Origin: Syntrophobotulus glycolicus DSM 8271
Lineage (GTDB): Bacteria > Bacillota > Desulfitobacteriia > Desulfitobacteriales > Syntrophobotulaceae
NCBI RefSeq assembly: GCF_000190635.1
Contig: NC_015172.1
Coordinates: forward strand, 1,922,001 to 1,986,000
Length of the DNA stretch: 64,000 bases
Direction of reading: 5' to 3'
Notes under the pieces: generated by a model
What the model saw: only the letters and a program-made list of their open reading frames with translations
Told to the model about the DNA's origin: nothing
Database searches by the model: none
Made by a program: the position numbers and the translations under genes
Shown: in pieces, positions 59,842 through 61,335 of the stretch
Position numbering within the stretch: the stretch's first letter is position 1
How the letters are laid out: each line of letters opens with the position of its first letter

Positions 59842-59934
59842 GTATGACAGGAAATATTGTGATAATTGTTGAATTTTAAGAGATTAAGTATTTGTCATTA
59901 ATCACTTTACGATAAGCATTAAAGGTGGGTAAAC

Positions 59935-60189
59935 ATGGACGAAATTTTATTTACAGACGATAAGTACAGACGCCAATACAGGCAGACTCTCCAATTGGGA
60001 CTGATTAAAATTGTTCAGGACCTCTTTCCTTTAGAAAAGCTGAAAATACCCTATTCGATTCTGGACGGCATCTACTGTGAATTATCAGAATCCCTCGTTT
60101 CCAGCCGGGAAGTAAAACTGATTGAAGAAACTTTAAAAAGATGGGTTTCCGAAGATCATCCTATTGAGTTTATCCGAATCATTAATTGA
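59935..60189 (+). CDS. N-terminal fragment of a nucleoside kinase (ThrRS-like SAD domain), ends at an in-frame TGA
   Basis: 84 residues behind AAAGGTGGG. Segments VQDLFPLEKLKIPYSILDG and LIEETLKRWVSEDHPIEF resemble the second additional domain of threonyl-tRNA synthetase, which precedes the kinase in clostridial nucleoside kinases of about 550 residues. It ends in TGA at 60187-60189, and the kinase frame continues in the same phase with no other stop. Either a split gene or a gene broken by one base change. The usual N-terminal TGS domain is missing. Confidence 0.6.
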   Translation: MDEILFTDDKYRRQYRQTLQLGLIKIVQDLFPLEKLKIPYSILDGIYCELSESLVSSREVKLIEETLKRWVSEDHPIEFIRIIN

Positions 60190-60204
60190 TATTATGAATA
60201 TCAG

Positions 60205-61335
60205 GTGGGCGATACCTTAATTCAAAGCATTCACCCTGCTTTTGACCATTCTTCCATCATTAAAAATTTTGAATTAATCCATTTCCCTCCCGGCTTTATT
60301 CTGCATTTTTCTGAAAAACCAACCAAGCATCCCTCTTTCCTGCTGCCGGAAAAATTATCAGCTACTTATGCCGAATCCCAGCGCTGGCTGGAAAATATCA
60401 ATTTAGACGGGGTCAATGACGTCAATAATTATATCTCTTACGGGAGGTCTCTGGAACTGATCAGCATCGCTGAAGCCCTGCATGAAAAAAAGATCTCCAA
60501 AATCGCCGATATGATCTATGAACAAAAAAAAGCGATAAAAGTTGTTCTTATCTCAGGTCCTTCCTCATCCGGCAAAACTACTTTTACCCAGCGCCTCTCT
60601 ACCCAATTGAGGGTGAATGGGCTAAAGCCCGTCTCACTTTCTCTTGACGACTATTTTTTAAACAGAGAGGATACTCCCAGAGACCCTTCCGGTCAATATG
60701 ATTTTGACGCTTTAGAAGCACTGGATCTGGAGCTCCTCAATAAACAGCTTGAAAAACTGATCAACGGTAAGATTGTCGAAATTCCCATCTTTAACTTTTT
60801 AACCGGCAAACGTTCTCCCAAAGGAAGATTCCTGCAGCTGGGGAAAAACGAAATATTACTGGTAGAGGGCATCCATGCCCTAAATCCCAACCTTCTTTCC
60901 TTTGAAAAAAAGGATCATTTCTTTAAAATTTATCTGAGTGCCCTCTTTCTTCTGAATATTGACGGCTTGAACCGTGTCCCAACCACAGAGGCCCGTCTGA
61001 TCAGGCGCATCGTCAGGGACGATAAATTCCGGTCATTCTCTCCGGAACGGACCTTAAAACAATGGGCCAGTGTAAGGCGAGGGGAGAATAACAGTGTGTT
61101 CAAATACCAGGAGGAAGCGGATATCATGTTTAATTCCAGTATTCTGTATGAGCTCAATGCCCTCCGTCCTACAGCGGAAGTTCTTTTGCGAAATGTTCCT
61201 GAGGATGATGAATATTATGATACGGCAATCAGACTGCTCAATTTGCTTTCCTTTTTCAAGCCCATGGAATTGTCCCAGATCCCGAGCAATTCTATTCTCT
61301 GTGAATTTATTGGCGGCAGCATTTACTCAACCTGA
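60205..61335 (+). CDS. Nucleoside (uridine) kinase domain protein
   Basis: 376 residues from GTG 60205, which lacks an SD and follows a 7-base hairpin that starts on the TGA. The end of the ThrRS-like domain (FELIHFPPGFILHFSEKP) leads to a P-loop kinase: SGPSSSGKTTFTQRLSTQL near residue 118, SLSLDDYFLNREDTPRD, VEGIHALNP, and RRIVRDDKFRSFSPERTLKQW. Family members phosphorylate uridine/cytidine. The kinase half is complete and looks under selection, so the product could still work if reinitiation or readthrough occurs. Confidence 0.8.
   Translation: MGDTLIQSIHPAFDHSSIIKNFELIHFPPGFILHFSEKPTKHPSFLLPEKLSATYAESQRWLENINLDGVNDVNNYISYGRSLELISIAEALHEKKISKIADMIYEQKKAIKVVLISGPSSSGKTTFTQRLSTQLRVNGLKPVSLSLDDYFLNREDTPRDPSGQYDFDALEALDLELLNKQLEKLINGKIVEIPIFNFLTGKRSPKGRFLQLGKNEILLVEGIHALNPNLLSFEKKDHFFKIYLSALFLLNIDGLNRVPTTEARLIRRIVRDDKFRSFSPERTLKQWASVRRGENNSVFKYQEEADIMFNSSILYELNALRPTAEVLLRNVPEDDEYYDTAIRLLNLLSFFKPMELSQIPSNSILCEFIGGSIYST

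Follow-up and report, generated by a model that had tools for sequence, protein, structure and literature searches.

A probable recent nonsense codon in the uridine-type kinase gene of Syntrophobotulus glycolicus

Introduction

The protein considered here shares the P-loop (GPSSSGKTT) and the kinase core with the PRK/uridine kinase P-loop family PF00485, which it matches at 68.7 bits (cut-off 22, E 8e-19). In a structure model, residues 136–455 match uridine and pantothenate kinases. The match to the UCK/Udk enzymes, such as human UCK2 and T. thermophilus Udk, covers residues 199–455 (Z about 16), while that to the pantothenate kinases covers residues 136–405 (Z about 18–19). Fusions of TGS and ThrRS-editing-like domains to a kinase occur in Clostridia and other bacteria (loci L038–L049). 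They are homologous over the whole length of the protein, with 41–44% identity, and, the TGS domain aside, their domains follow in the same order. A literature search for TGS-kinase fusions found nothing. A further comparison is with recent single-nonsense pseudogenes of bacteria, in which a conserved frame is likewise intact except for one stop and the disruption is confined to one genome.

We analysed a 64-kb stretch of DNA (the window) from the S. glycolicus type strain FlGlyR (DSM 8271), whose genome is a single contig of 3,406,739 bases. All coordinates below are window positions, and all features lie on the forward strand.

Results

Positions 59935–61335 hold one kinase reading frame, which is split by a single in-frame TGA (60187–60189). 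The start codon, ATG 59935, is preceded by the Shine-Dalgarno sequence AAAGGTGG; the probable Shine-Dalgarno region (AAAGGTGGG) spans 59921–59929. The upstream part (59935–60189) consists of 84 codons and the TGA. According to sequence, alignment and structure model, it encodes the first helices and strands of a ThrRS-editing-like domain. After the TGA, the same frame stays open up to the stop at 61333–61335. This downstream part (60190–61335), an open frame of 381 codons, contains the remainder of the editing-like domain and a P-loop kinase of the uridine kinase type. Codon usage is coding-like both 5' and 3' of the TGA. The read-through protein of 466 residues aligns end to end with orthologs of the order at 55–67% identity, indicating that both halves belong to one gene. 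The preliminary description had reported a single frame with the TGA as the only stop between two parts of one family, and this is correct to the exact coordinates. Elsewhere in the window, same-frame neighbours that each match Pfam, among them SpoIIIAB/AC and prolidase/EF-P, appear to be distinct genes lying next to each other.

For modelling only, the TGA was read as Trp. The read-through model has a mean pLDDT of 89 and a pTM of 0.87, and places residue 85, the position of the TGA, in a tight turn (84–85) between strands 76–83 and 86–91. Residues 5–136 superpose on the ThrRS editing domain (6vu9; Z 13.3, rmsd 2.5, 132 aligned residues) and on AlaX-M (9iuw; Z 13.1). The model thus suggests a ThrRS-editing-like N-terminal domain, the likeness being one of shared fold only: a Pfam search of the 84-residue upstream part gave no match, and a sequence comparison of the N-terminal half with solved structures gave no credible one. 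The stop falls inside this domain and not between domains. Judged by sequence, the gene product appears to be a related kinase that is uridine-type by family, with a score of 82.2 bits against the uridine kinase equivalog TIGR00235, far below its cut-off of 220.3. The genome has no second match to the PRK/uridine kinase family. No genome match to uracil phosphoribosyltransferase reached the model cut-off, so loss of the kinase could cost the cell pyrimidine salvage. For de novo synthesis, the genome does have aspartate carbamoyltransferase.

We looked for the gene in 73 genomes of the order, with S. glycolicus represented by one strain, and found it in 59. Matches in 57 other genomes cover the site, and none of them has a stop there. 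The residue aligned with the TGA in 34 order orthologs is Gly (11), Asn (10), Ser (5), His (5), Gln (2) or Pro (1); the premature TGA replaces a sense codon of a variable β-turn. Three genomes of genus g16 contain a TAG inside the match. We rejected this as a premature stop and read it as the natural C-terminal one, since the g16 frames finish with GGGIY at the corresponding position. In most close relatives, the kinase gene has an oppositely oriented threonine synthase gene beside it and a gene for endonuclease III downstream, which argues for vertical inheritance of the locus. Genus g5 gave no match to the gene in any of its five genomes, of which one is 95% complete, and neither did three genomes of family f3. 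This suggests separate losses, and loss of the gene seems to be tolerated elsewhere in the order.

The residues directly before the stop (60172–60186) are IRIIN, at a place where relatives in family f1 have mostly polar, GKEGN-like residues. Both a local template switch and a relaxed turn are possible explanations.

Constraint on the two halves was assessed in two ways. Where at least 90% of the order orthologs agree at a column, S. glycolicus has the conserved residue in 26/26 columns of the N-terminal half and 148/152 of the rest. Strictly invariant columns are kept in 18 of 18 and 92 of 94 cases, similar to intact orthologs. For relative rates, branch lengths were fitted separately for each half on one tree. 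S. glycolicus accounts for 0.043 of the total tree length in the N-terminal half and for 0.047 in the rest; the resulting N/C ratio of 0.91 indicates that constraint on the N-terminal half has not been relaxed compared with the kinase. Both tests speak against the earlier proposal of an eroding N-terminal half beside an intact kinase, which we rejected. With the conserved columns kept and neither half faster, either the stop arose not long ago or some protein is still being produced. If constraint ended with the origin of the stop, a rough Poisson bound places the unconstrained changes per site since loss below about 0.056, for comparison with a terminal branch of 0.34 for S. glycolicus in the kinase part.

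The read-through residue 456 (61300–61302), near the C-terminus, is Cys, whereas all 34 other order orthologs have Arg at this position (SILCEFIGG versus SILREFIGG). The change could reflect early relaxed constraint or chance.

The idea of erosion had also drawn on a missing TGS domain and about 25 missing residues near the break. Both are present in the wider family and absent here, as had been suggested, and they are equally absent from every aligned ortholog of the order (loci L003–L037 examined). Because these intact orthologs all lack them, the missing parts point to an ancestral short form and not to erosion in S. glycolicus.

A perfect stem that starts on the TGA, TGATATT-ATG-AATATCA (60187–60203), is present as first described. 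It is an inverted repeat of 7 bp with a 3-nt loop, worth -2.5 kcal/mol as RNA on its own. Codon shuffles of the gene give a mean of 0.66 such stems (7 bp, 3–8 nt loop), with at least one in 42% of shuffles, and the window holds 40 comparable stems. By our own rough, post hoc estimate, a particular stop would be overlapped by a stem of this kind with a chance of about 1%. The hairpin is missing from the minimum-energy fold of the 101 nt around it (z -0.31). None of the 34 inspected order orthologs has a 7-bp stem at the site, so we rejected the hairpin as a conserved signal. Nor do the orthologs conserve a stop together with a flanking element, the pattern sought for programmed readthrough or stop-reinitiation. 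The arms TGATATT and AATATCA are exactly complementary, forming a quasi-palindrome, and we considered that the TGA may have arisen by template switching within it.

An in-frame GTG (60205–60207) follows the TGA at a distance of 15 nt and, as noted before, lacks a Shine-Dalgarno sequence. It is a native Val codon of the orthologous frame at which orthologs mostly have Leu, Val or Ile. In reporters in E. coli and Haloferax, reinitiation drops steeply with distance and is nearly abolished at about 20 nt (PMC10666635), and structure directly downstream of stops has been described as an insulator against reinitiation (PMC7518266). By analogy, restart at the GTG might occur at a low level but is unlikely to be efficient. 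Judging from the model, it would also remove most of strand 86–91 (residues 86–90) of the editing-like domain. The hairpin and the GTG lend no support to a dedicated device for stop-reinitiation or readthrough, two options raised in the preliminary description.

We also looked for means of decoding the TGA. SelA has no match in the genome, the best SelB match (180.9 bits) is below the cut-off of 242, and the sole match over the cut-off of the tRNA-Sec model is tRNA-Ser(UGA), the model matches being ordinary tRNAs. Release factor 2 (RF2) is present. As an in-genome yardstick, 0 of 129 matches to ABC-transporter domains contain an internal stop, indicating that conserved domains across the genome are not often interrupted by stops. 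These results disfavour selenocysteine or a changed code. The aligned position is neither Cys nor Sec in any of the 34 order orthologs, and with no Sec machinery detected, selenocysteine was rejected.

Discussion

The TGA is probably a recent nonsense mutation in a vertically inherited uridine-type kinase gene, which would now be an early pseudogene or a near-null allele with low leakage at most. The disruption is limited to one lineage and the gene is otherwise conserved, as expected of a recent nonsense pseudogene. Among the options originally offered, loss of function is the best supported; the underlying observation was real, while its interpretation is only partly borne out. We propose that the orthologous nucleoside kinase gene of S. 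glycolicus recently gained a single nonsense codon at a variable β-turn. Most ribosomes would then terminate at codon 85, leaving an 84-residue fragment and presumably little or no kinase. Residual kinase, if any, might come from inefficient readthrough, for which the turn should accept nearly any residue, or from weak restart at the GTG. Against a null allele stands the remainder of the gene, which is kept so well that a leaky, useful gene is possible.

Leaky expression is the main rival, albeit a rather unlikely one. A near-cognate tRNA would read the TGA, or translation would restart at GTG 60205, and the resulting kinase would be enough for selection. This would fit the intact conservation on either side of the TGA, the location of the stop in a turn that varies among relatives, and the status of the gene as the only one of the PRK family in the genome. 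Feng et al. are said to have found in 2022 that bacterial pseudogenes show low protein expression, which we also count in its favour. However, recency explains the conservation equally well, and the weak stem overlapping the stop itself is the only candidate for a stimulatory element. The GTG has no Shine-Dalgarno sequence, restart there would lose strand residues from the editing-like domain, and the reinitiation-distance data oppose efficient restart (PMC10666635). It is improbable that the allele is naturally leaky and still selected, UGA readthrough or restart without a Shine-Dalgarno sequence at the β-turn maintaining a low kinase activity and the stop serving as a dosage valve on the only PRK-family kinase of the cell. 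If peptides across the stop exist, the gene would offer a neat natural experiment on how leaky UGA is in a clostridial bacterium.

That the finished assembly of 2011 contains a sequence error here is likewise quite improbable, even though the gene otherwise looks alive and the analysis covered one assembly of the strain. 454 sequencing typically errs by indels and not by substitutions, which counts against this explanation. The polished assembly combines 167x Illumina and 48x 454 data (215-fold) with a stated error rate of less than 1 in 100,000, and 119 pseudogenes were counted in the published genome (PMC3156405). Coverage, error rate and pseudogene count together make a recent nonsense mutation likelier than an error.

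We consider a maintained split kinase, in which the 84-residue N-terminal chain assembles with a separately started kinase chain, very improbable. The break lies exactly in the turn between two β-strands, where splits can be tolerated, and the IRIIN before the stop differs from the GKEGN type of relatives. Yet the split is absent from every other genome of the order in which the site is covered, the cut lies within one domain, and the second chain would start without a Shine-Dalgarno sequence. Selenocysteine insertion directed by a SECIS hairpin is hardly credible: a small stem does begin on the TGA, but the codon lies within the stem rather than before it, the orthologs never have Cys at the site, and the genome has no SelA, a SelB match below the cut-off and tRNA-Ser as the best hit of the tRNA-Sec model.

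A recent nonsense mutation is an ordinary finding and most likely not a new way of reading genes. Its main value is a correction of the annotation, which should record one interrupted kinase gene instead of two genes or a GTG-started gene, and treat the short N-terminus as standard for the order. In comparison with PRK-family kinases, this protein is distinguished by its fusion to the ThrRS-editing-like N-terminal domain. In comparison with the fusions of Clostridia and other bacteria, the whole order lacks the TGS domain and the approximately 25 residues near the break, while S. glycolicus alone has the TGA. Set beside recent single-nonsense pseudogenes, the only oddity of the gene is that its stop coincides with a short palindrome.
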